Part shown: positions 23,957-54,823 of the stretch, in pieces
Numbering within the stretch: the first letter of the stretch is position 1
Layout: every line of letters starts with the position of its first letter
Notes under the pieces: model-generated
Told to the model about the DNA's origin: nothing
The model's database searches: none
The model's input: the letters and a program-made list of their open reading frames with translations, nothing else
Source: Candidatus Manganitrophus noduliformans
GTDB taxonomy: Bacteria; Nitrospirota; Nitrospiria; SBBL01; Manganitrophaceae
Direction of reading: 5' to 3'
Assembly (NCBI RefSeq): GCF_012184425.1
Contig: NZ_VTOW01000008.1
Location: forward strand, 1 to 64,000
Length of the DNA stretch: 64,000 bases
Position numbers and translations under genes: made by a program

Positions 23957-24074
23957 GGTCGTTTTCCTCCTTTTTGGGGAATGATTGTTTTACGGAATCC
24001 ATAGAGTTGTTTAACAGATTTGGCATCAGGGCGGCAACCCACTTTGAGGTGGGTGTGGGAACGACGGAGGGGAT

Positions 24075-34708: not shown

Positions 34709-35189
34709 TGGAGCGGACCGCGCAATTGGAAGGGATCTTTTTCCCGAAACTTTCTGAGTTCTCCCGGAAACTGGAGGGGTGTTGACCGCCGCAGCGGGCG
34801 AAGCTGGCGGAGATACAAAAAAGAGTCCCGCGGGGGGAAGGGGAAACGGCGGTTGCGCTGTTTTCCGAAAGCGAGGAATCTTCCTCGCCCCTTGATCGTG
34901 CCGAGGAGCTGGGGCTCAGCCGTCCGCAGGTGGAGTTACTGGCGGCGCTGGAGATCGCCGCAAGACGGCAGGCGCGCCTAGACCGGGCCTGCGCTTCAGG
35001 GGGGTGCATCTCGATCTGGAGGAGATAATCCGGCGCGAGGCCTCGGATCAGAAGATCGAAGCCCGGATTGAGGGCATCGCAGAACGGTTTGCGAAAATCG
35101 AAAGCGACCGCCTTCGCGCCGGACTGAACAGCCTGAAGATCCTCAATGAGAAACAGAAGGTCGCTCTTCACCTTTCCTTCTCGGAGTAA
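34708..35189 (+). pseudogene. Second Spy/CpxP-like periplasmic protein, frameshifted
   Basis: It starts at ATG 34708, overlapping the previous stop (TGATG). The reading MERTAQLEGIFFPKLSEFSR breaks near 34783, then LTPQ-type (RAKLAEIQKRV) and ETAVALFSESEESSSPLDRA, and finally the frame ending 35189 (DLEEIIRREASDQKIEARIE, LKILNEKQKVALHLSF). The helical LTPQ and LNEKQ motifs place it with the preceding gene. Two breaks are evident. The pair closes the exbB-exbD-tonB transcript. Confidence 0.45.
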
Positions 35190-35393: not shown

Positions 35394-35455
35394 TTGACAG
35401 ACCGCCCTGGAATTATGTAAAAAGACCTTCTCTGAAATTGAGAATCATTTTCAGT
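35394..35455 (+). promoter_or_regulatory. Promoter with Fur box (iron-regulon module 3)
   Basis: TTGACA lies at 35394-35399. The -10 is less clear; TGTAAA 35416-35421 gives a 16-bp spacer. The Fur box at 35437-35455 reads ATTGAGAAT-C-ATTTTCAGT. It drives the TonB receptor and PepSY pair. Confidence 0.82.
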
Positions 35456-35524
35456 CTTGTGGCGGCTCGCGGTTGATCCAAAACCCCAAAGCCCAGAGTG
35501 GGATTCGCTCCCGCTTTGGGCTTT
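35456..35524 (+). ncRNA. Conserved Fur-regulon leader RNA, copy 3 (candidate attenuator)
   Basis: It holds GGCT (35464-35467), three bases, GGTT (35471-35474), a 7-base loop, AACC (35482-35485), CCAA and AGCC (35490-35493). GGCT pairs with AGCC and GGTT with AACC. AGCC is also part of the terminator's 5' arm (35488-35503). It is the shortest leader and shows the element's core without extras. Confidence 0.6.
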
Positions 35525-37708: not shown

Positions 37709-37715
37709 CTGTGGG

Positions 37716-37756
37716 CCTCAGTGATCCGCATTTGAGCAAAATGCGGATCACTGAGG
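37716..37756. repeat. Perfect 18-bp inverted repeat, 5-base loop, between receptor and PepSY genes
   Basis: CCTCAGTGATCCGCATTT (37716-37733) and its exact complement (37739-37756) enclose GAGCA. It starts 8 bp after the receptor stop and ends 2 bp before the chosen PepSY start at 37759. There is no T-run, so it is not a normal terminator. It could stabilise the receptor message or block translation of the PepSY gene. Confidence 0.7.
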
Positions 37757-37758
37757 GG

Positions 37759-39547: not shown

Positions 39548-39594
39548 TTGACAAGCCATAATGGCTTCATGTATTAATGATAATGATTCTCAAA
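39548..39594 (+). promoter_or_regulatory. Promoter with Fur box (iron-regulon module 4)
   Basis: TTGACA 39548-39553, an 18-bp spacer and TATTAA 39572-39577 form the promoter. The Fur box at 39576-39594 (AATGATAAT-G-ATTCTCAAA) overlaps the -10. It drives the ten-gene siderophore operon starting at 39725. Confidence 0.85.
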
Positions 39595-39687
39595 TTCACT
39601 CTCTATTAAGAATAGTTTTAACGGCTGGCGGTCGGCAGTACCAGAACCCAGAAGCCCGGAGGAATCTTCAAATTTCCCTCCGGGCTT
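39595..39687 (+). ncRNA. Conserved Fur-regulon leader RNA, copy 4 (candidate attenuator)
   Basis: It holds GGCT (39623-39626), three bases, GGT (39630-39632), a long loop, AACC (39645-39648), CAGA and AGCC (39653-39656). GGCT pairs with AGCC, and GGT with the ACC of AACC. AGCC is also in the terminator arm (39652-39662). The loop is longer than in the other copies, but order and outer spacing are kept. Confidence 0.55.
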
Positions 39688-39691
39688 TTTT
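39652..39691 (+). terminator. Intrinsic terminator in leader copy 4
   Basis: AAGCCCGGAGG (39652-39662) pairs with CCTCCGGGCTT (39677-39687), followed by a T-run to 39691. It ends 33 nt ahead of the sbnA start, matching the geometry of copies 2 and 3. Confidence 0.87.
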
Positions 39692-39724
39692 GTTTTAATC
39701 TACCACTCGAGGAGGCAGAACCCT

Positions 39725-40765
39725 ATGGTCTATGAATCGATTGTCAATTGCGTCGGTCGCACGCCGCTGATCTCTCTCCGGCGGCTCTTCCCCCGGCCCG
39801 GGGTGGAGGTCATCGCCAAGCTCGAATTCTTCAATCCGGGCGGCAGTATGAAGGATCGTCCGGCGAGGTTCATCATCGAACAGGGGCTGCGGGATGGGAC
39901 CATCGGATCCGGCACACACCTGGTAGAGAGCAGCTCCGGCAATCTGGGCATCGCCCTGGCGATGATCTCCCGCGTGTATGGTTTAACTTTCACCTGCGTG
40001 GTCGATCCGAAGATCACCTCTTCTAACTTGAGAATCCTCCAAAGCCTGGGGGCCCGGATCGAGATGGTTTCGGAACCGGACAACCAGGGAGGATACCTTC
40101 AAAGCCGGATCCGGCGCGTCCACGAACTGCTTGAAGCGATCCCCGGCAGCCTCTGGATCAATCAATATGCCAATCCGCGCAACTGGCAGGCACATTACTA
40201 CGGAACCGGGACTGAAATCCTCTCCGATTTGGACCGGCCGATCGACCTCCTGGTCGCGGCCGTAAGCACGACAGGGACAATCATGGGGATCTCACGCCGG
40301 CTGCGTCAGGTCTTTCCGCGCCTCAGAGTCGTCGCGGTCGATGCGGTCGGGTCTGTTATCTTCGGGGCGTCTCCTGGACCGCGCGAGCTCCCCGGCATCG
40401 GGGCAAGCCGGGTGCCTGAATTGCTCCGTCCGGATGAGATTGATGAGGTGGTCTATGTCAGTGATCGGGAGTCGACGCAGGGCTGCCAGAGTCTCGCTGC
40501 CCACGAGGGCATTTTGGCCGGCGGCTCGTCCGGGTCGGTGATCGCCGCCATCGGGAAGCTCCTTCCGTCTCTCCCGCCCGCGTCTCGAGTGCTGACCCTG
40601 CTGCCGGATCGGGGCGAGCGTTACCTCGATCTGGTCTACGACAATGGTTGGATTCGAAAGCTTCCCGCTTGCGAGGCCAAACCGGTTTTGTCCTTGCCCG
40701 GCGGCGGGTCCGCCCGCCCTGAACAGAACGAGCCCGATAGAGAAATCAAGCTACTTTCACTGTAA
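39725..40765 (+). CDS. sbnA: SbnA-like N-(2-amino-2-carboxyethyl)-L-glutamate synthase
   Basis: The 346-aa cysteine-synthase-fold PLP enzyme would join O-phospho-L-serine and L-glutamate, the first step to L-2,3-diaminopropionate. Lys43 (GGSMKDRPA) is the PLP lysine; ESSSGNLGIALA is the substrate/phosphate loop; AVSTTGTIMGISRRLR binds PLP phosphate; ILAGGSSGSVIAA is the C-terminal serine site. The family's usual opening (ESIVNCVGRTPLISLRRLF) is present. GAGGAGG precedes the ATG. It is the first gene after Fur leader 4; sbnB follows in 13 bp. Pairing with sbnB makes this call much safer than from the fold alone. Confidence 0.9.
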   Translation: MVYESIVNCVGRTPLISLRRLFPRPGVEVIAKLEFFNPGGSMKDRPARFIIEQGLRDGTIGSGTHLVESSSGNLGIALAMISRVYGLTFTCVVDPKITSSNLRILQSLGARIEMVSEPDNQGGYLQSRIRRVHELLEAIPGSLWINQYANPRNWQAHYYGTGTEILSDLDRPIDLLVAAVSTTGTIMGISRRLRQVFPRLRVVAVDAVGSVIFGASPGPRELPGIGASRVPELLRPDEIDEVVYVSDRESTQGCQSLAAHEGILAGGSSGSVIAAIGKLLPSLPPASRVLTLLPDRGERYLDLVYDNGWIRKLPACEAKPVLSLPGGGSARPEQNEPDREIKLLSL

Positions 40766-40778
40766 AAGGGAGGAAGAG

Positions 40779-41888
40779 ATGGAAAAGCAACCCACGGTTT
40801 TAAAAGCGCCTTCTATCCTGTACCTGAATCAAAGCGATATCATTCGACTCGGCGGATGCTCGTCGCATCTTTATATGGAAGCGGTTCGTCATGCCCTGAT
40901 CCTGCACGCCCGGGGCGAGGTCGTTCAGCCGCTCAAGCCCTATCTCCGCTGGCGGGAGCAGGGCCACATCGCCGACCGGATCATCGCCATGCCGGCCTAT
41001 CTGGGTGGGGGGCGGCCGATGGCGGGGATAAAGTGGATCGGAAGCAAACATGACAACCCCGCTCGCTTCGGCCTTTCGCGGGCGAGTGCCCTGACCCTTC
41101 TGAACGATCCGGAGACCCATTATCCGATCGCGATCCTGGAAGGGAGCCTCATCAGCGGAATGCGGACGGCGGCGGTCACCGCGCTGGCGGCGCGACATCT
41201 TGCCAAAAAAGCATTTCGTCGGGTGGCCTGCCTCGGCTGCGGCCCGATCGCCCAGATGCAACTGAAAACCCTTCTGGAGCAGTTTTCCGGAATCGAAGAG
41301 ATTCATCTATTCGATCTCGTCCCTGAAGCCGCCTGGCGGCTCGTCGCGGCGCTGCGTCCGGAATCTTCAAGGGTGAAGTATCAGGTCGATCCCTCCGCCG
41401 AAGCAGCGGTGCGCGCAGGGGAGGTGGTGATCACCTGCACTGTCGCCGACCAGCCCTATCTTCACTACGACTGGCTGCAGAAGGGGGCTTTTATCAGCAA
41501 TGTCTCCATCATGGATCTTCACAAAGAGGTTTTTGTCCGGGCCGACAAGGTTGTGGTCGATGACTGGGATCAGTCCAATCGCGAGAAAAAGATCATCAAC
41601 CAACTGGTCCTGGAAGGGCGCTTCTCCCGCGAGCGGCTTCATGCCGAGTTGGGAGGGATTCTCGCCGGACAGAAACCCGGACGGGAATCGGACGATGAGA
41701 TCATCCTGCTCAATCCGATGGGGATCGCTATCGAAGATATCGCCTGCGCGCAGGAGATCTATCAGCGGGCGTTGGCGGAGCGGGTCGGGGCCCGGTTGAG
41801 CCTGTATGGGTCTGAGTTGGAGCCGCTCCGCGGTGAAGAAAAACAGAAGGCCGGCGAGCAGGTTTCTTTAAAAACGGAGGTGCAATGA
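40779..41888 (+). CDS. sbnB: SbnB-like N-(2-amino-2-carboxyethyl)-L-glutamate dehydrogenase
   Basis: The 369-aa product belongs to the ornithine cyclodeaminase/mu-crystallin fold. SbnB oxidises the SbnA product with NAD to release L-2,3-diaminopropionate and 2-oxoglutarate, both building blocks of staphyloferrin B. Visible marks are KWIGSKHDNPARFGLSRASA, GSLISGMRTAAVTALAARHL and the Rossmann site VACLGCGPIAQMQLKTLLEQ, then VVDDWDQSN near the C-terminus. ATG 40779 follows GGGAGGAAGAG. The stop overlaps the receptor ATG (ATGA), coupling their translation. Confidence 0.9.
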   Translation: MEKQPTVLKAPSILYLNQSDIIRLGGCSSHLYMEAVRHALILHARGEVVQPLKPYLRWREQGHIADRIIAMPAYLGGGRPMAGIKWIGSKHDNPARFGLSRASALTLLNDPETHYPIAILEGSLISGMRTAAVTALAARHLAKKAFRRVACLGCGPIAQMQLKTLLEQFSGIEEIHLFDLVPEAAWRLVAALRPESSRVKYQVDPSAEAAVRAGEVVITCTVADQPYLHYDWLQKGAFISNVSIMDLHKEVFVRADKVVVDDWDQSNREKKIINQLVLEGRFSRERLHAELGGILAGQKPGRESDDEIILLNPMGIAIEDIACAQEIYQRALAERVGARLSLYGSELEPLRGEEKQKAGEQVSLKTEVQ

Positions 41889-44149
41889 AAGGATATTCTT
41901 ATAACAGGAAGAGGTGGAGTGGATCAGTCAGTCAAGGAATCGTCATCGCGGTTTGTCTCGCTTTCGCGGCAACGCCGGGTTTCAGCCAGCAGCCCGAACC
42001 GGAGGCCCGGCCTCTGGAAGAGCAGAACGGAACCTCCGGCGTGGCGGGGGAGGAGCCGATCAGAATGGAGGAGGTCGCCGTGACGGCGACGCGCAGCGAA
42101 GAGTCGATCGCCGCCATCCCGGGGGCGGTGACCGTGATCACCCGGAAGCAGATCGAAGAGCAGGCCACCCTCTCGAGGGATCCGGCGGAGGCGCTCGGCA
42201 AGTTGGTCCCGGGCCTGGCTCCCGGCAATCAGTCGCTGAGCAGTTTCGGGCAGACACTACGCGGCCGCAACGTTCTGGTCTTAATCGACGGCGTCCCCCA
42301 GATCTCGCTCCGGAATGCGTTCCGGGATCTGACCGCCATCGACCTCTCCGCCGTGGAGCGGATCGAGGTGATCCGAGGCGCCACCGCCATTTACGGCGAA
42401 GGGGCCAGCGGCGGGATCGTCAATATCATTACCCGCAGACCGGGCGAAGGAAAAACCCGCTTCACGACGGAACTCGGCGTCAATACCTCTTTAAGCCACC
42501 TCCATCTGAAAGACAGCCTCGGCGGCCGCATCCGCCAGGAGGTGTCGGGCGGACGGGGACGGTTCGACTACACACTCAGCGGATCGTTTGAGCGGACCAG
42601 CGGCTTCTTCGACGCGGAAGGGGACCGCATTCCTCCTGAACTGCTGAGCGCCCAGGGGGGGCTCTCCGATCTCAACACGTACGACCTTTTTGGAAAGTTC
42701 GGTCTTGACCTCGGCCCGCAGCGGCTTCAACTGACCGTGAACCGCTATCACGCCCGCCAGGATACCGACGATGCCACCGATCCGGCGGTGAACGCCTTCC
42801 CGCCGCGCACCGTCAAGGCGCGGGCCCGCGAGGGGCTGGTGTTGGCGGATCAGCCCGAGACGGAGAACACGGTCGTCTCCCTCGACTACGACCGGGCCGA
42901 TCTCTTCGGCAGCCGCCTGCACAGCCAGCTCTTCTTCCGCGATTACCTGACCCGGTTTTTTCCATCCGATGCCCGCGCTTCTGCCCGCCTGGGGAACAGC
43001 ATCATTCAATCCTGGGTGGAATCCGAAAAGATCGGAGGGCGCTTGGATATTGAGACCCCTCTTCCCCTGCCCCGGGTGACGGCGCCGACGCTGTTGTGGG
43101 GGGTGGACTACACAGATGAGGAGGCGTTCCAGCCGGTGGCCATCATGGATCCGGCCGCTTTTGACAACAGCGGCGGGTTGGTTTTCATCAAGACGGGCGA
43201 GCGGATGTGGGTCCCGCCGATGACACGGCGCAATCTCGCTCTTTTCGGACAGATGGAGTGGGCCGCCACGGAGCGGTGGCTTCTGCGGGCCGGGCTGCGC
43301 CACGAATGGATCGGGATCCGCGTCGATGAATTCACCACCCTCGAAGGCAACACTATTCCGGGGGGCGACATTGATTTCAGCGCCACCGTCTTCAACACCG
43401 GCGCGGTCTTCTACGCGACCGATCCGGTCAGCCTCTTCGTCAGCTTCTCCCAGGGGTTCTCGGTGCCCGACGTCGGCCTGATCCTCAGGAGCGCCCCTCC
43501 CGGCTTCTCTCTCGAATCCTCTCTGCTGGAGCCGATCAAAGTCGATCAGTACGAAGTGGGTGCGCGCGGGACATGGCCCCGGATACAGTCCTCCGTCTCC
43601 GCATTTCTAAGCAAATCGGATCTCGGGATCACCACCACGGGAGGGCCGACCTTGTTTAACATTACCACCGTCCGCACCCCGGAGGAGATCTGGGGGGTCG
43701 AGGGGGTGATCGACCTCCAGCCGTTCGAACGGTGGTCTCTGGGCGGGACCGCCTCCTGGATCGCGGGAGAGAACGATCCCGACCGGGACGGCAATTTCAC
43801 CGATATGAACGGGTTTCGCATCCCGCCGCTGAAGCTGACCGCTTATGTCGAGCACGACACGCTGCCGCGCTTGCGTTGGCGCAACCGCCTGCAGATACTC
43901 TATGTCGGGAGCCGCGACCCCGGCTTGGGAGAGAGGGCATTCGGCGGCCGAGCGGTAAATAATTACGCCACAGCCGATTGGACCAGCAGCATGGCGGTCG
44001 GGCCGGGGGATCTCCGCTTCGGGATTGAGAACCTCTTCAACCGGCAGTACTTCACGACCGTCTCTCAACTCCTTCGGACGGGACGCAACGACAGCTTCAC
44101 GGCGGCGCGGGGGGCGACCCTCCACCTCGCCTATACCATGACATACTGA
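41885..44149 (+). CDS. TonB-dependent siderophore receptor within the staphyloferrin-type operon
   Basis: The 754-aa product has a signal peptide (GIVIAVCLAFAATPGFSQ), a TonB-box-like RMEEVAVTATRSEES, a plug (GAVTVITRKQIEEQA, GQTLRGRNVLVLIDGVPQIS, AVERIEVIRGATAIYGEGAS) and a long barrel. The C-terminal strand is LHLAYTMTY, ending in an aromatic as barrels do. GGAGGTGCA precedes the ATG. Its place between sbnB and the exporter indicates uptake of the ferric siderophore made here. Gram-positive sbn clusters have no such gene because they lack an outer membrane. Confidence 0.9.
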   Translation: MKGYSYNRKRWSGSVSQGIVIAVCLAFAATPGFSQQPEPEARPLEEQNGTSGVAGEEPIRMEEVAVTATRSEESIAAIPGAVTVITRKQIEEQATLSRDPAEALGKLVPGLAPGNQSLSSFGQTLRGRNVLVLIDGVPQISLRNAFRDLTAIDLSAVERIEVIRGATAIYGEGASGGIVNIITRRPGEGKTRFTTELGVNTSLSHLHLKDSLGGRIRQEVSGGRGRFDYTLSGSFERTSGFFDAEGDRIPPELLSAQGGLSDLNTYDLFGKFGLDLGPQRLQLTVNRYHARQDTDDATDPAVNAFPPRTVKARAREGLVLADQPETENTVVSLDYDRADLFGSRLHSQLFFRDYLTRFFPSDARASARLGNSIIQSWVESEKIGGRLDIETPLPLPRVTAPTLLWGVDYTDEEAFQPVAIMDPAAFDNSGGLVFIKTGERMWVPPMTRRNLALFGQMEWAATERWLLRAGLRHEWIGIRVDEFTTLEGNTIPGGDIDFSATVFNTGAVFYATDPVSLFVSFSQGFSVPDVGLILRSAPPGFSLESSLLEPIKVDQYEVGARGTWPRIQSSVSAFLSKSDLGITTTGGPTLFNITTVRTPEEIWGVEGVIDLQPFERWSLGGTASWIAGENDPDRDGNFTDMNGFRIPPLKLTAYVEHDTLPRLRWRNRLQILYVGSRDPGLGERAFGGRAVNNYATADWTSSMAVGPGDLRFGIENLFNRQYFTTVSQLLRTGRNDSFTAARGATLHLAYTMTY

Positions 44150-44220
44150 AGGCCTGCAAGGGGTCAGGTTCACAGCAGGCTCTCATCAGCAGCCTTGATG
44201 AAGAGGGTGGAGTTCGCTCG

Positions 44221-45453
44221 ATGAAAAGGGACCGGAAGGCTTTCTTGGTGATCTGGGTCGGACGCTTTCTGGCGACGGCCGGGTTGGCGATGGTGGTGCC
44301 GTTTCTTCCGTTCTATCTGGACGAGTTGGGGGCGACCGGGATCAAAGAAAACCGGCTCTGGACGGGACTGTCGCTGGCGGCTCCGGCGATCATGTTCATC
44401 TGGGCGGCCCCTCTTTGGGGACGGTGCGGCGACCGGTGGGGGCGCAAGTGGATGGTGGTGCGAGGGGTCTTCGGCATCGCGATCAGCCTGGCGCTGATGT
44501 CCCTGGCCCGAACGCCGTTTCAGTTTTTCCTTTGTCGTCTGTTGCAGGGGCTTGTCGGAGGAGACAATCCCGCCGCCGCGTTTGTCGGCTCTCAGGGGCG
44601 GGAGGAGGAGCGCGGACGGGCGTTAGGAAGCTTGCAAAGCGCGGTGGCTGCGGGATCACTGATCGGGCCGCTGATCGGAGGCCCGGCGGCCTACTTCACC
44701 GGATTCCGTCCCCTGCTGCTGGCGCTCGGTTTTCTGACAGGGGTGAACGGATTGCTGTCGGCCCTGATCTTAAGAGAGGTTCGGCCGCCCCCCAAAGCGC
44801 AGATCAAAGAAGGGAAGGGCCCCTCCGCGCCGCCGCGACCTGGCTTCTTCGACCTGCTGGGAAACCGAAGGCTGCGGACGTTCCTTATCGCTGGTATCTG
44901 GATTCAGGTCGGTGTCTTCGGGCTGGTGACGATCTTTGCGCCGCATGTGGAGAGATTGACCGGCTCCGCGGGCCTTGCAGCGACCTGGGTCGGAGGACTG
45001 CAGGCGATTTTATGGGGCGCCGCCATGGTCGGCGCCCCCTGGTGGGGGCGACGCAATGATCAGACAGAAGTCGAGAAAAATTTTTTCTGGTCGGCCGTTG
45101 CAGGCGGGCTTAGCATCTTTCTGCAGGCGATCCCGCAAAATCCGGCCTGGTTGATTCCGCTGCGGATCGTGCAGGGGTTTTGCTTCGGCGCCATTCTCCC
45201 TTCCATTCTACTGGTGGTGACGCAAGAATCGTCGGACCAAAACCGGGGAATGTGGATCGGCGCGGCCAGCTCTTTCCTGTTCATCGGCCAAATTCTCGGC
45301 GCTTTGTTCGGCGCGTTGCTCGGCGGAGGGGCGACCGAGTGGATTTTTATCTTGCTGGGAGGGGCGCACATTATCGGCGGGGGGTGGGTCCGATTTAAAC
45401 TCAGGGAGCCGATCGGTGCCCCGCTGTATGCAGGCAGACGAAAAGGAGGATAA
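44221..45453 (+). CDS. MFS exporter, SbnD-like siderophore efflux
   Basis: The 410-aa product has about twelve membrane segments. FLATAGLAMVVPFLPFYLDE opens helix 1; GRCGDRWGRKWMVVRGVFG is the MFS loop 2-3 motif; LGSLQSAVAAGSLIGPLIGG and LIPLRIVQGFCFGAILPSIL are later helices. Its place matches sbnD, the staphyloferrin B exporter. The start (ATGAAAAGGGACCGG) lies 71 bp after the receptor stop, the largest gap in the operon; no terminator or promoter was found there. Export of the product is inferred from context. Confidence 0.85.
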   Translation: MKRDRKAFLVIWVGRFLATAGLAMVVPFLPFYLDELGATGIKENRLWTGLSLAAPAIMFIWAAPLWGRCGDRWGRKWMVVRGVFGIAISLALMSLARTPFQFFLCRLLQGLVGGDNPAAAFVGSQGREEERGRALGSLQSAVAAGSLIGPLIGGPAAYFTGFRPLLLALGFLTGVNGLLSALILREVRPPPKAQIKEGKGPSAPPRPGFFDLLGNRRLRTFLIAGIWIQVGVFGLVTIFAPHVERLTGSAGLAATWVGGLQAILWGAAMVGAPWWGRRNDQTEVEKNFFWSAVAGGLSIFLQAIPQNPAWLIPLRIVQGFCFGAILPSILLVVTQESSDQNRGMWIGAASSFLFIGQILGALFGALLGGGATEWIFILLGGAHIIGGGWVRFKLREPIGAPLYAGRRKGG

Positions 45454-45458
45454 AGATC

Positions 45459-47369
45459 ATGATCGATCCATCGAAGTTGGCCGAGCAAGCGGCGGTTCAA
45501 GAGGCAATCGATCGAAGCGGCGCCTGGAGCAAAACGCAGGCGATCGAACGGCTGCTGAATACCTATCTGCGGGAGAGCGGTCTTTTCGATCCGAGGTTAA
45601 CGCCGGACGGCCCGCAGGGGAAGGGACTCGGCCCCGGCGCGCCGGCGCTGAAGAGCCCACAGGGGATGCCGATGCACATTCCCCTTCCGAAAACCGGAAA
45701 GGGGCTCTTCGGCACGATCATCCGCTGGTCTCCCTCGGGGCGGCATCACTTCGGTCCGTGCTTCTGGCTGCGGGAGGATCCCGGCGGAGGGGCGGTCCCA
45801 TTGGAAGGATGGAGAGGGCTTGCCTGCGCTCTGCTGGAGGAGCTGGCACTCGGTCAGCCCGATCTCTCCTCTCGGCGGGAGGGGGTCCGATCGCTGCTGG
45901 CGCGTCTTGAGAACTCTATCGAAAAAACGGCCGCCTATGCCCGCCGCCGCTCCGTCTGCCGGTCTTGGCTTGAACGGCAAGGAGCGCCACGGTTTCAGGA
46001 GGCCGAGCAGTCGCTGGTCTCCGGCCATCCCTTCCATCCGACCCCGAAGAGCTCGGAGGGCTTTTCCGCTGAGGATCTGGCGCGGTACGCCCCGGAGATG
46101 GGGGCCGCCTTCCCCCTCCATTATTTCGCGATCGCGCCCGAGCGGGCGGCAGAGTCGTTTCTGGAAGGGACCGAGCAGGAGGGGCTGTTTCCGGCGGAAG
46201 TGGTCGCGGCCGCGGAAGCGCGGCTGGGGCCCCGCCGGAAGGACCATCGTCTCCTTCCCTGCCATCCCTGGCAGGCGGGCTACCTGAAGCGGTGGCGGGG
46301 AGTTCAAGCGATGCTGGACCGAAGGGAACTGGTCGACCTGGGACCTCTGGGAGGGGTTGTTCATCCGACCTCTTCGGTCCGGACCGTCTGGGACCCGCAT
46401 CATCGCTATCTCTTCAAGCTGCCGCTGAATGTCCGCATCACAAACTTCATCCGGGTCAATCCGCCAGAGCATGTCGCGCGGGCCTTCGATGCCGCGCGGA
46501 TCCTTGCCGGTCTGCGGCATCGCATCCCTTTCAGCGATTTCGCGATTCTGCTGGAGGTCGGCTATCGGACAGTCGTTCCGCCGGACGACCCGGCCGATCC
46601 TGCAGAGCGCTTTGCAGAGAGTTTCGCGGTCCTCTTTCGGGAGAATCCGGTGACGCTCCCGGCGGATGAAGAGCCCCCAGTGGTCGTGGCGGCGCTGTTG
46701 GAGCCCCCTTTCGACGCCGAGCCGCCACCGCTCCTTCAGGTGATCCGGCGGGCCGCGGCGGCGCGGGGGCGCTCCGCCGATCTCTCCTTTCTGCGCGAAT
46801 GGCTGCAGCGCTACCTCGACATTTCGCTGATCCCCCTTCTATGGCTCTTTCTCGAAGAGGGAGTGAGCTTCGAGGGACATGTCCAGAATTCCCTCGTTCG
46901 GCTTAATCGGGGTTGGCCGGACCGGTTTTATCTCCGCGATCTGGAGGGGGTGAGCCTCAGCAGGGAGCGGGCGGCGGAAAAAGGTTTTTTCCGGGGCCGC
47001 ATTGATGAAGAGAGCCCGGCGCTCTACGCCGATGAGGAGGCCTGGAACCGATTTAAATATTATCTCTTCGTCAATCATCTCGGCCATCTTATCGATATCC
47101 TCGCCGACTATGGCGGTTGCGACGAGCGTCTTCTCTGGCGTGTCGTCGCTGAGGCGCTGGAGGGCTCCAGCCTCCGTTCGACCCATCCGATTTACTTCCG
47201 GGATCTTTTCGGGAGCAGGACGTTGCTGGCCAAAGCGAATCTGGTCAGCTGTTTTCTGGGGCGAGGGGAGCGGCCCCTTTATGTTTCCATCCCGAATGCA
47301 TTGGCTCAAGGGGACGAGGCCCCATCCGAATCAGCAACAAGGGAGATCCGAAATGCAGCAGGTGATTGA
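45459..47369 (+). CDS. IucA/IucC-family NIS siderophore synthetase (SbnC-like by position)
   Basis: The 636-aa ATP-dependent ligase joins carboxylates to amines, independent of NRPS. Motifs: SGHPFHPTPKSSEGFSAEDL (nucleotide-binding GHPxHPxxK), LLPCHPWQAGY, HPTSSVRTVWD, FKLPLNVRITNFIR, and EGHVQNSLVRL near the C-terminus; a FhuF-like C-terminal domain follows. AAAAGGAGG precedes the ATG. It overlaps the SbnH-like gene by 17 bp. In S. aureus SbnC adds 2-oxoglutarate last. Assigning this paralogue as SbnC rests on gene order (next to the exporter) and is not certain. Confidence 0.88.
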   Translation: MIDPSKLAEQAAVQEAIDRSGAWSKTQAIERLLNTYLRESGLFDPRLTPDGPQGKGLGPGAPALKSPQGMPMHIPLPKTGKGLFGTIIRWSPSGRHHFGPCFWLREDPGGGAVPLEGWRGLACALLEELALGQPDLSSRREGVRSLLARLENSIEKTAAYARRRSVCRSWLERQGAPRFQEAEQSLVSGHPFHPTPKSSEGFSAEDLARYAPEMGAAFPLHYFAIAPERAAESFLEGTEQEGLFPAEVVAAAEARLGPRRKDHRLLPCHPWQAGYLKRWRGVQAMLDRRELVDLGPLGGVVHPTSSVRTVWDPHHRYLFKLPLNVRITNFIRVNPPEHVARAFDAARILAGLRHRIPFSDFAILLEVGYRTVVPPDDPADPAERFAESFAVLFRENPVTLPADEEPPVVVAALLEPPFDAEPPPLLQVIRRAAAARGRSADLSFLREWLQRYLDISLIPLLWLFLEEGVSFEGHVQNSLVRLNRGWPDRFYLRDLEGVSLSRERAAEKGFFRGRIDEESPALYADEEAWNRFKYYLFVNHLGHLIDILADYGGCDERLLWRVVAEALEGSSLRSTHPIYFRDLFGSRTLLAKANLVSCFLGRGERPLYVSIPNALAQGDEAPSESATREIRNAAGD

Positions 47370-48606
47370 TTACCTCCATCGACGGAAAAAAGCAAATCCA
47401 AAACCGGTTTGCGCCTTTGTCTATGACCTGGATGCATTGCAGACCCATGTTTCCGGGCTGATGAAGACGCTGCCGTCGCGCTGCCGTCTTTTTTACGCCA
47501 TGAAGGCCAACTCGGAAGCGCCGATTCTCAAAGCGCTGGCCCCGCTTGTCCACGGCTTCGAAGTCGCCTCTCTGGGCGAGGTTCGGAAGGTGAGAGCGAT
47601 CTCCCCCGAGGCGCCGATTATTTTCGGAGGGCCCGGCAAGACGGATGAGGAGATCGAAGGGGCGATCGACCTCGGTCTCTACCTGCTCCATGTAGAAAGC
47701 CGCCACGAACTGCAGCGGATCGGCCGGATTGCCCATCGGCGCGGTGTAGAGGTTCCGATTCTGCTGCGCGTGAATTTACACGGCGCGCTGCCCCAGGCAA
47801 CGTTGGCCATGGCAGGGCGGCCGACCCAGTTCGGCATCGATGAAGCGGCCCTGCCTGATCTGATACGGCTCGCCGTCGCTCTTAAAAATGTGAAGTTGGC
47901 CGGCTTTCATCTTCATTCTCTGTCGAACCAGCTCGATCCCGAACAGCACGTTCGATTGATCGCATTGTACTGTGCAAGGGTCCGTCGATGGATCGAGACC
48001 TTCGGTTTGAAGATCGATTACATCAATGCCGGCGGAGGCGTCGGCGTGAACTATGCCGATTTGACACGGCAATTCGATTGGAATTGTTTTTCTGAACGAT
48101 TGGCTGGGATGCTTCAGGTTGAATGTCCTCCCGGCGCGGGCGTTCTTTTTGAGTGTGGCCGCTATCTCACGGCGGCCTGTGGATATTATGTGACCGAGGT
48201 GCTCGATATCAAACAAAACCACGGCAAGCACTACGCCATTATCAACGGCGGCTCCCATCATTTCCGGCTTCCGGCCGCTTGGCAGCATAGTCATCCCTTC
48301 AGTATCGTCCCCGTCGCGCGGTGGGATTATCCCTTTTCCCGCCCGGAGCTTCTCGACAGCGAAGTGACGGTGGCGGGACAGCTCTGCACTCCGAAGGATA
48401 TCCTTGCGAGGGATGTCCGGATCTCGCGTTTGCGGATCGGCGATCTGCTTCTATTTCCCTATGCGGGGGCCTATGGATGGTCGATCTCCTGCCACGATTT
48501 TCTAAGCCATCCCCATCCGGATCATATTTATTTAAGTGAAACAGGGCCTGCCGCCGATAAGACCGATCCGCGGCAGGCTGCGGCAAGAAGGAGTCGGAGA
48601 GACTAA
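47353..48606 (+). CDS. sbnH: SbnH-like PLP-dependent decarboxylase
   Basis: The 417-aa type III PLP (alanine-racemase-fold) enzyme is related to diaminopimelate and ornithine decarboxylases. SbnH decarboxylates citryl-diaminopropionate to citryl-diaminoethane. PLP lysine is Lys51 (LFYAMKANSEAPIL). GFHLHSLSNQL and INAGGGVGVNY bind PLP phosphate; FECGRYLTAACGYYV is the dimer/substrate loop. RIGDLLLFPYAGAYGWSISC marks the C-terminal barrel. The start ATG 47353 sits inside the NIS gene, so translation is coupled. The C-terminal LSETGPAADKTDPRQAAAR extension is non-conserved. Confidence 0.87.
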   Translation: MQQVIDYLHRRKKANPKPVCAFVYDLDALQTHVSGLMKTLPSRCRLFYAMKANSEAPILKALAPLVHGFEVASLGEVRKVRAISPEAPIIFGGPGKTDEEIEGAIDLGLYLLHVESRHELQRIGRIAHRRGVEVPILLRVNLHGALPQATLAMAGRPTQFGIDEAALPDLIRLAVALKNVKLAGFHLHSLSNQLDPEQHVRLIALYCARVRRWIETFGLKIDYINAGGGVGVNYADLTRQFDWNCFSERLAGMLQVECPPGAGVLFECGRYLTAACGYYVTEVLDIKQNHGKHYAIINGGSHHFRLPAAWQHSHPFSIVPVARWDYPFSRPELLDSEVTVAGQLCTPKDILARDVRISRLRIGDLLLFPYAGAYGWSISCHDFLSHPHPDHIYLSETGPAADKTDPRQAAARRSRRD

Positions 48607-48620
48607 AAAGAGGAGGGAGC

Positions 48621-50531
48621 ATGCAATCCAAAGGTCCGGATCGACATGAAAAAGCGTGGGGAGCGGTTCTGCGGGAGCTGATCGATGTACTGTTCCATGA
48701 AAATCTGGCGGGAATAGTCGATCGCGGCGCCGTCACAACCGATATTGAACCGGCGGGTGCTGTTTCAGATTTCACCCTGGAGGGCGACGAACAGTATTTC
48801 CGCTTCCCCTCAAAACAGAGCGGCTGCGCCCTGTTCTTCCGCGTTCGTCCCTGCCTCTTTCTTCAGCCATACCGTTTAAGCCGTCCTCCTGTGATCGTGA
48901 TCCCTCCTCCCCCCGGCGCGCCCCAGGCCGTTTTTGATCCCGCCGAGGTGCTACGGTTTCTGGCCACGCATCTTTTGGACAGAGAGGAGCGGGATCGGAT
49001 GCCGAACGTGCAAGAGGTGATTCGAGATCTGGAACGGGCCGTGGCGCAAACCGCCCTCTCCTTTGAAGCGGCCGGGCCGCTCCTCGATGCGCTCTCATCC
49101 TCACGGAGGCCTTCTCTCCTCCTGTGGGAGAGCGTGGCCGCGCTGCGGGATCGCCCCTTCCACCCGGTCTCGCGGGCCAAAGTGGGATGGAATGAGGAAG
49201 AGTACAGACGGTTCGCTCCCGAGTTCAACGCTTCCTTTGGTCTCGATTGGATCGCGGTCCGGCGGGACCATCTTCAATGCAGCGCCGCCGCGGCAGAGAC
49301 CGAGATCGCTCCCCTTGTTCTGAACGGCAAGGAGCAGGAAAGATTGGCCGCCTCGCTGGCCGAGGCCCGACGCGACGGTTCCGACTATCTGGCCCTGCCG
49401 GTTCATCCCTGGCAGGGAAGCCGACTCTTGCCGAAAGAGTACGCCGATGAATTTCGGCGCGGCATCTGTCTGCCGCTGGCCCGCGGCCTGGGCCGCTTCG
49501 TCGCCACATCCTCGGTCCGGACCCTCTCGCCGGCGGGAGGCGGGGGTGTTCATCTCAAATTGCCGCTCGGCATCGCCTCGCTCGGCGCCCTCCGCCTCCT
49601 TCCGCCGCACTTCCTGTACAACGGCGAGCGGGCCTACCAGTTGCTCGAGCGGCTCCTTGCGGTCGAGCCGGTGCTTGCCCGGCAGCTTCGCTTATGTGTC
49701 GAGGAGCGCTGGTGGGCCTTCTCCGCGGAGGGAGGGGATTCATTTGTCGATAAGTCGTGCCACCTCGCCGCTCTCTTGCGTTTCATTCCGGCGGACCTTG
49801 TAAAAGACCCCTCGACGGCCTTGATTCCGATGTCGGCGCTTTCGGTCGTGGCCCCTGACGGGCGGATCCCTGCTGTCGACTATCTCTTTCGCGAACGGTT
49901 TGAAGAAGACGGCGCGGCGCCCGATCAGGCGCTGGCGTTGTTTCAGGAGGTATGCGAACGGATCACCGAGCCGGCATTACTCTGCTTCCGCTACGGGATG
50001 ATGCCGGAGATGCATGGACAAAATGTGCTGCTCATCGTGCGCAAAGGGCGGGTGGTCGGTCTGCTGCTGAGGGACTACGACACGCTCCGCATTTACCCTT
50101 CCTGGATGGCCGAGGTCGGTCTGCCCGGTCCCGACTACATTGTCAAGCCGAACAGCACCCTGATCAATCAGACCCCTGAAGATCTCCTCGCCTATTTTCA
50201 GACCCTCTGCATCCAGGTCAATCTCTACGCGATTGCCGCCGCCCTTTCCCATCGCTACGGTATCAAAGAGGATCTGTTCTGGCGGGTGATCCATGCCTGC
50301 ATCGAGAAGACCCTCTCCGCCTTCGATTTTCCTCTTCCGGTCCGGTCGGTTCTGACGCGCGGCCTGCTCCAGAGCGAACGATGGCCGACCAAACAGGTGC
50401 TCACCCCCCTTCTCGCCCGCAGCGGTCCGGCCGGTCCGGGAATGCCGGGCGGGCGGGGGGAGATGGCCAACCCGCTCCGCGCACTCCGGCCGCTTGTAAA
50501 TCCGATCCACCCCTGCGAGGTCCCCTCATGA
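48621..50531 (+). CDS. IucA/IucC-family NIS siderophore synthetase (SbnE-like by position)
   Basis: The 636-aa product has NIS motifs. DRPFHPVSRAKVGWNEEEYR replaces the usual GHPxHP (Asp/Arg for Gly/His), a noteworthy change at the nucleotide pocket. ALPVHPWQGSRLL, VATSSVRTLSPAG, HLKLPLGIASLG and MPEMHGQNVLLIV follow. GAGGGAGC precedes the ATG. The end overlaps the next synthetase (ATGA). S. aureus SbnE makes the first amide between citrate and L-2,3-diaminopropionate. Order (E-F-G) suggests SbnE here, but the altered first motif means the partner choice is open. Confidence 0.87.
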   Translation: MQSKGPDRHEKAWGAVLRELIDVLFHENLAGIVDRGAVTTDIEPAGAVSDFTLEGDEQYFRFPSKQSGCALFFRVRPCLFLQPYRLSRPPVIVIPPPPGAPQAVFDPAEVLRFLATHLLDREERDRMPNVQEVIRDLERAVAQTALSFEAAGPLLDALSSSRRPSLLLWESVAALRDRPFHPVSRAKVGWNEEEYRRFAPEFNASFGLDWIAVRRDHLQCSAAAAETEIAPLVLNGKEQERLAASLAEARRDGSDYLALPVHPWQGSRLLPKEYADEFRRGICLPLARGLGRFVATSSVRTLSPAGGGGVHLKLPLGIASLGALRLLPPHFLYNGERAYQLLERLLAVEPVLARQLRLCVEERWWAFSAEGGDSFVDKSCHLAALLRFIPADLVKDPSTALIPMSALSVVAPDGRIPAVDYLFRERFEEDGAAPDQALALFQEVCERITEPALLCFRYGMMPEMHGQNVLLIVRKGRVVGLLLRDYDTLRIYPSWMAEVGLPGPDYIVKPNSTLINQTPEDLLAYFQTLCIQVNLYAIAAALSHRYGIKEDLFWRVIHACIEKTLSAFDFPLPVRSVLTRGLLQSERWPTKQVLTPLLARSGPAGPGMPGGRGEMANPLRALRPLVNPIHPCEVPS

Positions 50532-52387
50532 AGATACCGCTTCAGGAAGCCGGCTTCCCATCGCTGGCGCCGATCGATGTAGATCAGCTTCATGCGCTCG
50601 ACGCGGCGCTCCATTCCAGGGAATTCATCACGGTCCGAAGGCGGATTTTCCGCCAGTTGATCGAATCGCTCATCTATGAAGGGGTCTTGGTCCCGGAGGT
50701 AGAGAAGGAAAAAGGGGGAGACCTCCTCCGCCTGCATGGCCGGGAGCAGGGGGGCACCCCCGTGACTTACCGCTGCCGGGCGAGGCGGAGATTCAGCTTC
50801 GACCGGGTTCGGCTTGATCCCAAACCGGTTGTGCGAGTCCGCGGCGGAAGGAGCATGGAGGCGCAGTCGCTCTCCTGTTTCCTCCTGGAGATTCAGGCGT
50901 CCCTCGGTACCGATCCGGACCGGTTGGTCCGGTTCACGGAAGAGTTAGAGCAGACACTCCTGAAGGACACCCTGGCGCAACACCGCGGCCGGAGGGAGAG
51001 AGGGCTGCTGCGCGGCCGCGCCTACGATGATCTCGAAAGCGGATTGATGGAGGGTCATCCCTATCATCCCTGTTATAAATCCCGGATCGGCTTCGATTAC
51101 GCCGACCATCTCGCCTTCGGTCCGGAATTCGCTCCGATGCTCCGGCCGATCTGGCTTGCCGCCCGCCGCGACGCAAGCCGCATCGCCGCTTCCGGCCGGC
51201 TTCGCCCGGAACGTTTTCTCAAACAGGAATTGGGAGAAGAGGTGTATGGCCGCTTTCTTCGGGAAGTCCGCCGCAGGGGAAAAGTGCCCGAGGCGTACGT
51301 TCTCATCCCGGTCCACCCCTGGCAATGGCGGGAGCGGGTGCTCCCGCTCTTCTACAACGATCTGCGGGAGGATCGCCTGATCCAGGTCGGAACGGCGAAG
51401 GATTTCTACTCCCCGCAGCAATCGATCCGAACGGTGGCCAACCTGACCGCTCCTCACAAGGCCTCTTTGAAGCTCTCATTAGGGATCGTCAATACCTCCA
51501 CCTCCCGGATCCTGGCCCCGCATACGGTTCGGAATGCCGCGCCGATCACCGACTGGCTGCAACGGATTGCGCAAGAGGACTCCTTTCTTCGGGAGGAACT
51601 CCGCCCGATCTTGCTGGGGGAGGTCGTCGGGGTGGCCTATGATCCGCCCCGGCCGGACCTTCTTCAGCCGGCCGGCTACGGCGCCCTCTCGTGCATCTGG
51701 CGGGAGAGCGTTCACCCCTTCCTTTCCGAAGCGGAGAAAGCGGTTCCGTTCAATTCCCTTGCCTGTCTCGACCGGGATGGCCGGCCGTTTATCACTCCGT
51801 GGGTGGAGCAGGTCGGGTTGGTTCCGTGGGTCCGGCGCTTGCTTTCGGTCAGTATCCTGCCGGTGATCCATTTTCTCTATGCGCACGGGATCGCCCTCGA
51901 GGCCCACGCCCAAAATATGATCCTGATTCATACAGACGGAATGCCGCAGCGGGTCGCCTTTAAAGATTTCCACGACGGGATTCGGTTCGCTCCGGCGCTT
52001 CTGGCCGCGCCCGACCTGCGGCCGGACCTTTGTCCCACCCCCGAGCTTCACGCCCGGGTCAACCGGAACTCCTACATCGAGGCGGAAAAGGAAGAAGAGG
52101 TGCGCGATTTTGTGCACGATGCCTTCTTCTTCGTCAATTTATCGGAGCTGGCCCTTTTCCTTGACGAAGCCTTCGCGCTTCCGGAGCGACGTTTCTGGAC
52201 GCTCGCCCGCGGGGTCATCGAACGGTATCTACGCCGCTTTCCAGCGCTTCAGGGGCGCATCGCCCTTTTTGATCTCTTTTCCCCGACCGTTCAGGTCGAG
52301 CAGCTGACGAAGCGGCGGCTCTTTCCGGAGACGGAGCCTCGTCTGCATCGGGTCCGAAATCCGCTCGCCTTCGTGAAGGGGGAGTGA
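50528..52387 (+). CDS. IucA/IucC-family NIS siderophore synthetase (SbnF-like by position)
   Basis: The 619-aa product has the full motif set: MEGHPYHPCYKSRIGFDYAD, LIPVHPWQWRERV, SPQQSIRTVANLTAP, LKLSLGIVNTSTSRILAPHT, EAHAQNMILIHTDG and KDFHDGIRFAP. This pattern, with QQSIRT and NTSTSR, is that of SbnF/AlcC/DesD-type synthetases. SbnF joins citryl-diaminoethane to a second diaminopropionate. It overlaps both neighbours: ATGA with the previous gene, and a GTGA start of the SbnG-like gene within its stop. Confidence 0.88.
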   Translation: MKIPLQEAGFPSLAPIDVDQLHALDAALHSREFITVRRRIFRQLIESLIYEGVLVPEVEKEKGGDLLRLHGREQGGTPVTYRCRARRRFSFDRVRLDPKPVVRVRGGRSMEAQSLSCFLLEIQASLGTDPDRLVRFTEELEQTLLKDTLAQHRGRRERGLLRGRAYDDLESGLMEGHPYHPCYKSRIGFDYADHLAFGPEFAPMLRPIWLAARRDASRIAASGRLRPERFLKQELGEEVYGRFLREVRRRGKVPEAYVLIPVHPWQWRERVLPLFYNDLREDRLIQVGTAKDFYSPQQSIRTVANLTAPHKASLKLSLGIVNTSTSRILAPHTVRNAAPITDWLQRIAQEDSFLREELRPILLGEVVGVAYDPPRPDLLQPAGYGALSCIWRESVHPFLSEAEKAVPFNSLACLDRDGRPFITPWVEQVGLVPWVRRLLSVSILPVIHFLYAHGIALEAHAQNMILIHTDGMPQRVAFKDFHDGIRFAPALLAAPDLRPDLCPTPELHARVNRNSYIEAEKEEEVRDFVHDAFFFVNLSELALFLDEAFALPERRFWTLARGVIERYLRRFPALQGRIALFDLFSPTVQVEQLTKRRLFPETEPRLHRVRNPLAFVKGE

Positions 52388-53181
52388 AGGTGCTACGAAT
52401 CAATACGCTGAAGCAGGCGCTTCGGGAGGGGCGACCGGCCTTCGGGCTCTTCTGCTCCACGCCGGCTCCCCAGGTGGTCGAGCGGATCGGCTGCGCCGGG
52501 TTCGATTTTGTCATTCTCGACACTGAGCATACGCTGGTCAACCCGGAGACGCTGGAGGAGATGCTCCGGGCGGCCGAGGCGGCGGGGCTGATCGCCCTGG
52601 TCCGGGTGCCGCAGCACGCGCCGGGGGCGGTGCTGCGTGCGCTCGATGCGGGAGCGCTCGGCGTGGTGGTGCCGCGGGTTTGCTCCGCCGCCGAGGCGGA
52701 GACGGCGGTCCGAGCGAGCCGCTATCATCCGGAAGGAGAGCGGGGGCTGAATGCCGGTCGGGCCGCCGGGTACGGGAAGATCGATCTCTTTTCCTATCTT
52801 CAGCAGGCAAATGCCGAGGTCATGGTCGTCGTCATGATTGAAGACCGGCAGGGAATTCTGGAGGCGGGGAAGATCCTCTCCGTCCCCGGCATCGACATGG
52901 TGCTGGAGGGGGCGGCCGATCTTTCCCAATCGCTCGGCCTCCCCTGGCAGACCCGCCATCCCGCAGTCCGGGAGGCGCTCTGCGATCTCCAGACGGCGGC
53001 GCAACGGCAGGGGGTTCCCTTCTGCGCCGTCCCCCGGGTCGCAGAGGATTTCGGCTTTTGGTGGGGACGGGGGGTGCGGGCGCACATCTTGGGGGAAGAG
53101 CGAGGGATCGCCTACCGGGCCCTTGCCGCCCATCTACAGCGGTTTAAGACGGAGCTGAAAGAGCGGAAGGAGGGTCCCTGA
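52384..53181 (+). CDS. sbnG: SbnG-like citrate synthase (HpcH/HpaI aldolase family)
   Basis: The 265-aa product is of the class II aldolase fold and is not related to TCA citrate synthases. SbnG makes citrate for the siderophore from oxaloacetate and acetyl-CoA. Marks: GCAGFDFVILDTEHTLVNPE (catalytic Asp/Glu region), IALVRVPQHAPGAVLRALDA, GALGVVVPRV, RGLNAGRAAGYGK, VMIEDRQGILEAGKIL and DMVLEGAADLSQSLG. It starts at GTG 52384 inside the previous stop; the next ATG overlaps its stop. A dedicated citrate enzyme frees siderophore production from TCA flux. Confidence 0.88.
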   Translation: MKVLRINTLKQALREGRPAFGLFCSTPAPQVVERIGCAGFDFVILDTEHTLVNPETLEEMLRAAEAAGLIALVRVPQHAPGAVLRALDAGALGVVVPRVCSAAEAETAVRASRYHPEGERGLNAGRAAGYGKIDLFSYLQQANAEVMVVVMIEDRQGILEAGKILSVPGIDMVLEGAADLSQSLGLPWQTRHPAVREALCDLQTAAQRQGVPFCAVPRVAEDFGFWWGRGVRAHILGEERGIAYRALAAHLQRFKTELKERKEGP

Positions 53182-54188
53182 TGCGCCCGGTCAGCCGCCT
53201 TCTGTCGAAGATCCACATCACGGCGGGGCTGATACTGGCCTTCCCGCTCATAATTATCACGCTGACCGGCATCGTCTTGGGCTTCTATGATCAGATCCGT
53301 TATGCCGCCCCTCCCTACCGTCTCGATTCTCCTGTCGAGACCCCTCTCTCCGCCGCCTCTTTAGCGGCGCGCCTGCGTGTCCGCTATCCGGACTATCATC
53401 TCGACCTGCTGAGGCTCTCCACGGCGCCGGAACGGGCGGTCCGGGCGGCGCTCTCCGGTCCGGATCGGATCACGGCCTTTCTTCACCCCGGAAACGGGAA
53501 GGAGCTGGCGGTCCAGAAGGGCGATCACCAGGATTGGATCGGCCTCTTGTATGCCCTTCATGAGGGGGAGCCGTTCGGTTTAGCCGGCAAGGTCGTCGCC
53601 AGCGTCAGCGGGGGAGGGGTGCTGGTTCTATGGGGGGCCGGTCTTATGTTGTGGCGGTCCCGCCGCAAGGGGAGGTGGGGGGGGCCGGCCCTCCCCGGCC
53701 GTTTTCGTCCGGCCGGCGTGCACCGTTTTCTCGGCTTCTGGGGAGGCGGCCTGCTGGCGATCCTGACCTCCCTGGGAGCCCTCCTGAACTTCGCCGGGCC
53801 TCTGATCGCCCGGCTGGATCCGCCCCCCCGGATCGAATCGGCGCCGGAAGAAAAAGAGGGGCTGAAGCCCGATTTGGCGGCCGGGCTCGGCGCGGCAGCG
53901 CGCGCCTACCCACAGGCTCCCCTGGAGCGGATCGCCTTTCCCAAAGTGCCGAAGGATCCATTGAAACTCCGGTTTCAGGACGGCGGATGGGTTTTTCTTC
54001 ATCCGGACGATTACCGAATATTGGCGATCAAATCTCCTACCTCTCATTGGACCCGCCTTCTCTATCCGCTTCACAGCGGACGGATCTTGGGCGGCCGGGG
54101 TCCCTGGCTGGTTGCCGGCCTCGGCCTCTTCCTAATAATTCTTCTTGTAACTGGTCTGATCTTCTGGCAAGGCTTGCGGCCGAAATAA
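53181..54188 (+). CDS. PepSY-TM family membrane protein
   Basis: The 335-aa product has four membrane segments: residues about 10-33 (SKIHITAGLILAFPLIIITL, with the conserved His), GEPFGLAGKVVASVSGGGVL, RFLGFWGGGLLAILTSLGAL and LVAGLGLFLIILLVTGLIFW. LLYALHEGEPFG and LLYPLHSGRILG carry the paired His of the PepSY_TM fold (haem ligands in this family). It closes the operon (TGATG overlap). It likely reduces ferric siderophore or passes electrons at the inner membrane; a homologue lies at 37759 next to the other receptor. Confidence 0.85.
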   Translation: MRPVSRLLSKIHITAGLILAFPLIIITLTGIVLGFYDQIRYAAPPYRLDSPVETPLSAASLAARLRVRYPDYHLDLLRLSTAPERAVRAALSGPDRITAFLHPGNGKELAVQKGDHQDWIGLLYALHEGEPFGLAGKVVASVSGGGVLVLWGAGLMLWRSRRKGRWGGPALPGRFRPAGVHRFLGFWGGGLLAILTSLGALLNFAGPLIARLDPPPRIESAPEEKEGLKPDLAAGLGAAARAYPQAPLERIAFPKVPKDPLKLRFQDGGWVFLHPDDYRILAIKSPTSHWTRLLYPLHSGRILGGRGPWLVAGLGLFLIILLVTGLIFWQGLRPK

Positions 54189-54248: not shown

Positions 54249-54572
54249 TACTGTCCCGACGTTATACAAATAAATTTAACTGGTTATCGGTATCGATGGT
54301 TTCATCTTCATAGTCAGTTGAAAAAAGCACTTGTAATATGGGCGTTTTCTCGAACAGCGGCACACTCAGAATTTGTAGAATTGTGTAGAGGCTGCGGTCG
54401 AGCTTCAGACGCTTTTTTGATAATGGCCACCAGAACATATACACAGATCGCAATCCAGATTTGAGTCTTGACGGTGTTCTCGGTGGTGCCATAAAAAGCT
54501 TTGATCCGCATGTGCTGCTTGATCCACTTGAAGAACAACTCGACCTGCCAGCGACACTTGTATAACTGGGCG
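54249..54572 (-). pseudogene. IS4-family transposase C-terminal fragment
   Basis: Reading leftward from 54572: IAQLYKCRWQVELFFKWIKQ, then RIKAFYGTTENTVKTQIWIA, ICVYVLVAIIKK. After a shift near 54415 it continues LKLDRSLYTILQILSVPLFE and ends near 54262. This is the YREK-type C-terminus of IS4 transposases. Its outer end at 54249 (ACTACTGTCCCGACGTT) resembles the tips of the MITE at 2311. At 54572 it joins directly to dps sequence, so its N-terminal part and left end are deleted. Confidence 0.8.
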
Positions 54573-54823
54573 ATCACGGGACGCTCGCCGAGTTTATGAG
54601 CCAGACCCGGCTCAAAGAGCAGTCGGGAAATCCGGAAGCCTCCGAGATGATCTCCAATCTTCTGGGAGATCATGAAGCGGTTATCCGGTTTCTGAGGGAT
54701 GACCTCACCACTTGCGCCGAGAAGCATAACGATATGGGGACGAGTGATTTTTTGACCGGGTTGATGGAGCAGCATGAGAAAATGGCCTGGATGCTGCGGG
54801 TTTTTTTACACGGCCAGCGATAA
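54573..54823 (+). pseudogene. dps: 3' fragment of a dps (DNA-starvation ferritin) gene
   Basis: From about 54573 the plus strand reads HGTLAEFMSQTRLKEQSGN, then MISNLLGDHEAVIRFLRDDL, CAEKHNDMGTSDFLTGLMEQ and HEKMAWMLRVFL to a stop at 54823. This is the last half of a Dps/DPS-like ferritin, with the D/E-x-x-x-x-H-E region of helix 4. The first half is replaced by the IS4 transposase fragment in the opposite direction. No start or promoter remains, so it is dead. The loss removes one oxidative/iron protection gene beside an iron-uptake island. Confidence 0.85.

Follow-up and report, generated by a model that had tools for sequence, protein, structure and literature searches.

Does a single operon in a member of the Nitrospirota encode everything needed to make and recover the siderophore staphyloferrin B (SB), and how would such an operon have come under the control of its host? 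SB is established in Staphylococcus aureus, Cupriavidus, and Ralstonia (PMC3179956, PMC2864759). A search of the open-licence literature found no report of SB in Nitrospirota, and combining SB with Nitrospira returned just a review of gut microbiota. We analyzed a 64-kb stretch of DNA from Candidatus Manganitrophus noduliformans (the window, at its full length), for which a first-pass annotation had proposed a complete SB-type pathway in one operon. Taken together, our results make it likely that this operon makes and re-imports SB, is controlled by Fur plus an RNA leader, and was acquired by transfer.

Biosynthetic genes and their predicted product

The sbn operon is tightly packed on the + strand of the window, running from sbnA through a PepSY_TM gene (39725–54188). 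Overlaps between neighboring genes reach 17 bp and gaps do not exceed 71 bp, making a single transcript likely, and all genes are intact. In order, they are sbnA (39725–40765), sbnB (40779–41888), a TonB-dependent receptor (receptor 2, 41885–44149), an SbnD-like MFS exporter (44221–45453), sbnE (45459–47369), sbnH (47353–48606, with its ATG start codon at 47353), sbnC (48621–50531), sbnF (50528–52387), sbnG (52384–53181), and the gene for PepSY_TM protein 2 (53181–54188), that is, A-B-receptor-D-E-H-C-F-G-PepSY. A DDE transposase remnant on the − strand (54314–54775, PF01609 49 bits) forms the 3′, right-hand border. The complete enzyme set anticipated by the first-pass annotation is thus present, as are the receptor between sbnB and the exporter (by domain match) and the terminal PepSY protein (PF03929 113 bits). 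Its claim that gene order departs from that of S. aureus also stands, but its C and E labels must be exchanged, the order of the synthetases being E-C-F rather than C-E-F.

Individual enzymes are readily identified. SbnA and SbnB exceed their curated equivalog cut-offs (427.5 vs. 350 bits for TIGR03945 and 396 vs. 327 bits for TIGR03944, respectively) and can be aligned over almost their full length with the solved structures of SbnA (5D84, 412 bits) and SbnB (4M54, 442 bits). The best PDB match of the PLP decarboxylase is SbnH-type 6KNH (446 bits) and that of the aldolase-family citrate synthase is SbnG 4TV5 (226.8 bits); SbnH, SbnG, and SbnC all match solved S. aureus-type proteins. The exporter matches MFS_1 and shares 37–54% identity with what Bacillota clusters encode at the SbnD position. 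No SbnI was found among the operon genes, and Methylobacterium 22A is also without it (PMC9301485).

The three IucA/IucC-FhuF proteins of the operon are the only IucA/IucC proteins found genome-wide. The first-pass annotation had proposed phylogeny as a check on the product, with clustering among other siderophore types as the outcome that would speak against SB. In a tree of 48 NIS (IucA/IucC-type) synthetases, we instead recovered three separate SB clades (E 100%, C 99%, and F 99%; this and our other trees come from quick searches, have SH-aLRT values as their sole support, and draw on partial genome samples without Cupriavidus and Ralstonia sequences). Each clade contains one window protein together with counterparts from staphylococci, Bacilli, Pseudonocardia, Agrobacterium, Methylocystis, and a second genome of the window's class (G018), so that members include Actinomycetota and Alphaproteobacteria, while other synthetase types (L103–L110) fall outside all three. 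By phylogenetic placement, the synthetase at 45459 is SbnE, that at 48621 is SbnC, and that at 50528 is SbnF. SbnC and SbnF do not reach the NCBIfam "exception" cut-offs (371.6 vs. 700 bits for NF033583 and 578 vs. 900 bits for NF033586). Just 4/350 Bacilli genomes pass the SbnF cut-off, genomes that we took to be staphylococci because they alone pass it, and Marinithermofilum fails too, so the two thresholds seem calibrated to the staphylococcal branch. Clusters in Ottowia and Nitrosomonas (L006 and L008) were considered as SB clusters and set aside as a different siderophore type; they share SbnG and SbnH and are without linked sbnA/sbnB or SbnF.

If the enzymes act as in the SB chemistry described in PMC3179956 and PMC9301485, SbnA and SbnB would supply L-2,3-diaminopropionate (L-Dap) and alpha-ketoglutarate and SbnG would supply citrate. 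SbnE would couple L-Dap to citrate, SbnH would then decarboxylate the adduct, SbnF would add a second L-Dap and SbnC alpha-ketoglutarate, and the MFS protein would export the finished SB. Could a changed synthetase substrate instead yield an SB-like product that differs by one building block? SbnC is where such a change might be sought, since its orthologues are the most divergent (31–49% identity to other clusters, with a long branch in the G018 sequence), and the pathway does diversify elsewhere, as a second SbnF-type NIS replaces SbnC in clusters of Bacillus badius and of genome G617. However, the window has orthologues of all seven biosynthetic enzymes, and SbnA, SbnB, and SbnH are 47–71% identical to those of other full clusters. 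We therefore consider an altered product quite unlikely and retain SB as the predicted one. The Bacillus badius plasmid cluster (L038, 16856–19545) and the G617 cluster (L098) are themselves SB-like, with a second SbnF-type NIS and neither SbnC nor SbnG found, which suggests that they make different products.

Predicted ferric siderophore uptake and iron release

Genes that could serve uptake lie within the operon and just upstream of it. Upstream on the + strand are an ExbB-ExbD-TonB set at 31981–33964 (ExbB 31981–32640, PF01618 98.5 bits; ExbD 32607–33053, PF02472 106.6 bits; TonB 33050–33964, PF03544 66.4 bits) and, at 35561–38919, a pair comprising receptor 1 (35561–37708, 42% identical to receptor 2) and the FoxB-like PepSY_TM protein 1 (37711–38919). 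PepSY_TM proteins of the FoxB type act in the periplasm as reductases of ferric siderophores (PMC10866019, PMC13001220). Proteins 1 and 2 both exceed the curated PF03929 cut-off of 28.8 bits (236 and 113 bits); protein 1 matches FoxB-type 7ABW at 100 bits, and protein 2 is weakly similar to FoxB (29.6 bits). Two further genes, at 30992–31774 and 34276–35174, are kept with the iron locus in two congeners (G1149 and G1150), and the first weakly matches sigma-70 region 4. Elsewhere in the window, a TonB-dependent receptor is apparently split into a plug domain (24020–24946) and a barrel (24998–26260).

A FecCD search found no siderophore ABC permease in the genome. The sole strong FecCD match (279 bits) lies in a cobalamin operon, whose genes were recognized from sequence, one of them by Pfam; four other matches score 27–39 bits. 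Because no siderophore ABC permease was found, release of iron in the periplasm by the PepSY reductases is probable, and we regard reductive release as the likeliest iron route. In this scheme receptor 2, the candidate ferric-SB receptor on account of its gene position, would be powered by the upstream-encoded ExbBD-TonB and import ferric SB, the PepSY_TM proteins (with protein 2 as candidate ferric-SB reductase) would carry out the reduction in the periplasm, and Fe(II) would enter by a separate route.

Origin and control of the operon

SB genes are rare in the phylum. SbnA scores above cut-off in 2/396 sampled phylum genomes, the window's genome and G018 (the search otherwise returns mostly cysteine synthases, and only this over-cut-off tally is informative), and 3/396 have any match to the SbnF model. 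G018 has the full set (ECF sigma, receptor, A-B-D-E-C-F-G-H, and PepSY_TM as the last gene), with the receptor 58% and the PepSY_TM protein 46% identical to those of the window's operon. In the synthetase trees, the window's genome and G018 come out as sisters (98% for E, 95% for F, and 91% for C), and their NIS proteins branch among or beside those of Bacillota, away from Alphaproteobacteria. Identities follow the same pattern, reaching 67–68% for SbnA and 53–57% for SbnF against the nearest Bacillota clusters and lower values against staphylococci (56–58% and 41–44%). Clusters with this gene set are present in staphylococci, Bacilli, Actinomycetota, and Alphaproteobacteria as well as in one further genome of the window's class, and sequence affinities suggest that the biosynthetic genes were probably transferred from a Bacillota-type source, with receptor and reductase added. 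A Brasilonema SbnA (69% identity) was dropped as a possible link to the donor, having no sbnB or NIS gene annotated nearby. Complete SB clusters in A-H order are also carried by a Methylocystis plasmid (L080) and by the pTi plasmid of Agrobacterium leguminum (L081), a conjugative Ti plasmid on which the cluster adjoins an iron ABC transporter.

Upstream of sbnA we found a Fur box at 39579–39597 (15/19 consensus positions; the other strand reads GAATTTGAGAATCATTATC), with 39573 as an overlapping register, and a terminator before the gene, in keeping with the Fur/attenuator promoter that had been proposed there. A score of 15/19 is reached in 2/2000 shuffles of the region. The best four Fur-box sites on the + strand of the window are this one and those at 20673–20691 (16/19), 31809–31827 (15/19), and 35434–35452 (15/19), which precede a CbiX-like gene, exbB, and receptor 1, respectively; at most three mismatches to the consensus used are seen at 20673 alone, against an expectation of none. 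A candidate sbn promoter (TTGACA, 18 nt, TATTAA; 39548–39577, + strand) was read by eye and aligned with the congeners' copies, and a promoter scan did not report it on the + strand. When iron is plentiful, Fur would repress this promoter. A perfect palindrome, AAGCCATAATGGCTT, occupies 39553–39567 in the −35/spacer region of the candidate promoter; it is single-copy in the window and not conserved in the congeners' leader copies. The CbiX-like gene (20968–22812) behind the first Fur box and its leader is split over three reading frames, while its relative in G1149 (L124:7872–9569) is one intact frame, indicating that the window copy is frameshifted or misassembled.

The promoter arrangement appears to extend to a leader element that is restricted to the window's order. 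At sbnA, a hairpin identified by alignment and covariance model (39617–39658, + strand; P1 GGCU/AGCC, P2 GGU/ACC) is followed by an intrinsic terminator (39650–39697, a 13-bp stem at 39650–39689 plus a U run) whose 5′ strand shares AGCC with P1. A hairpin-only covariance model (R2) finds exactly four sites in the window, all on the + strand and one behind each of the four Fur boxes, although R2 was built from an alignment (A4) that includes these four copies. Besides the sbn copy these are 35458–35495 (35.6 bits), 31890–31922 (23.7 bits), and, weakest but also seen in the alignment, 20721–20753 (20 bits), so that two of the four are weak, at 20 and 24 bits. A DNA search of relatives turned up the leader in the two congeners, with 75% identity, and a covariance model from three copies found more, giving 27 collected copies after plain terminators were removed (among them low-scoring R1 matches without the core in L166, L169, L171, L172, L175, and L176).

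Sequence and pairing of the leader are conserved. All 27 copies share GGCU-NGC-G(GU)-loop-(AC)C-CARA-AGCCC or a close variant, and the GGCU/AGCC and GGU/ACC pairs are formed in 95.8% of cells. Two-sided changes, such as G-C to C-G at one pair, occur in 9 cells compared with 1.5 (sd 1.1) in shuffles, none of 500 of which reaches 9, and sliding the pairing partners lowers every covariation measure; because the core sequence played a part in choosing the copies, and several of them are related, the controls make them look more independent than they are. A CUGG/CCAG pairing proposed by RNAalifold was rejected, as it breaks in copies with CUAG or CUCG, where the GGCU/AGCC and GGU/ACC pairing holds. 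When the segment up to AGCCC is folded alone, most copies form the P1/P2 hairpin, and once the downstream half is included, AGCCC pairs within the terminator instead. A strong terminator lies at the end of nearly every copy. Pair counts with their controls, together with partial versus full folds, thus describe a conserved aptamer-like hairpin that is exclusive with a terminator, and transcripts that have started would meet a second control where hairpin and terminator compete for the same AGCC.

The contexts of the leader vary. A Fur-like site (at least 14/19) lies just upstream of 16/27 copies, and 16/27 have an ORF at most 70 nt downstream, including exbB, receptor, CbiX-like, and lipoprotein genes. 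Copies in L158, L159 (G000 contig 12), L160, and L162 often lack a Fur box and stand before lipoprotein-like and other genes, with as many as four of them in the space of a few kilobases. A strict leader pattern matches 2/331 sampled phylum genomes, both in the window's order, and a reversed control pattern matches none. Rfam gives no gathering match in the sbn leader region, just a spurious miRNA match (E 0.39), and nothing at the other copies; a scan of viral contigs for the pattern found nothing.

How the leader works admits several readings. A far-reaching one, to which we give less than even odds, is that it belongs to a previously undescribed, order-confined, riboswitch-like class, a hairpin of ~40 nt with a conserved internal loop (GGCU-NGC-GGU...ACC-CARA-AGCC) that would sense a metal ion or small molecule to gate the terminator, layered on Fur repression at iron genes and used alone at others. 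The Fur box, conserved core, and strong terminator would also fit a Fur-repressed gene for a trans-acting small RNA analogous to RyhB, with sbnA transcribed by read-through, and in the two congeners 157–223 nt separate the closest copy from the next ORF, a gene for an unrelated prepilin-like protein. That many copies stand at most 70 nt from different ORFs (exbB, receptor, and lipoprotein genes), that several have no Fur box, and that an overlap of P1 with the terminator is typical of cis attenuators make a small RNA rather unlikely in our view. A terminator alone could also explain the leader, by merely insulating the operon from upstream transcription beside a hairpin with no regulatory role, given that nearly every copy has a strong terminator and that short terminator-adjacent hairpins can be passive; conserved unpaired positions, two-sided pair changes, and the recurrent position between a promoter and a gene leave us doubtful of this explanation too.

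The promoter region seems to have been resident before the sbn genes. The closest relatives of the sbn leader, in G1149 and G1150, end a homologous iron locus (CbiX-like, regulator, ExbBD or receptor-PepSY_TM genes) and are followed by the prepilin-like gene, for which the window's genome offers no close orthologue. No sbn genes were found in the stretches examined around these copies, and the leader is absent from the G018 sbn cluster. Two histories would fit, insertion of sbn behind a leader that was already there or loss of sbn from G1149 and G1150, and insertion is favored because sbn is rare in the phylum. This suggests capture of the operon by a Fur-plus-leader promoter already in place.

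Comparison with known systems

SB chemistry is already known, and what is new here is its occurrence in a phylum where it is rare, its Bacillota affinity, the rearranged gene order, and the failure to find a siderophore ABC permease. The leader is the part that a specialist would not expect; as a compact RNA element before iron and other genes across an order, it is a testable candidate for a new class of attenuator, and it would illustrate how a host can bring an acquired operon under two layers of control that it already has. The proposal of an SB pathway adapted to a Gram-negative cell is supported, but such adaptation is not novel. Cupriavidus metallidurans CH34 and Ralstonia solanacearum are Gram-negative, have the eight core genes, and carry the receptor AleB beside the cluster (PMC2864759); their clusters are described as syntenic with that of S. 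aureus, whereas the window's is rearranged with the receptor inside the operon. Methylobacterium aquaticum 22A, also Gram-negative, has an SB-like cluster in which tonB_sbn is needed for siderophore use and SbnE and SbnF are reported to be fused (PMC9301485), while in the window they are separate. On the Methylocystis plasmid, an SB cluster lies beside PepSY_TM and TonB-receptor genes. FoxB-type reductases share the PepSY_TM fold and, as in the window, a position beside TonB receptors; PepSY_TM protein 2, in the operon, is shorter than the FoxB type. The closest sequences overall belong to Bacillota SB-type clusters (Marinithermofilum L004, G455, G614, and G696), in which we found no TonB receptor or PepSY_TM gene and the order is mostly A-B-C-D-E-F-G-H.

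S. aureus sbnABCDEFGHI and the window have SbnA-H orthologues, the predicted chemistry, and a single operon in common. They differ in order (A-B-C-D-E-F-G-H in S. aureus) and in SbnI, and S. aureus uses the SirABC importer, whereas the window has an outer-membrane receptor and a candidate PepSY_TM reductase. Our results describe a rare, probably transferred SB pathway in a phylum that is almost devoid of NIS siderophore synthesis, and paired with receptor-plus-reductase uptake instead of a Sir-type ABC importer.
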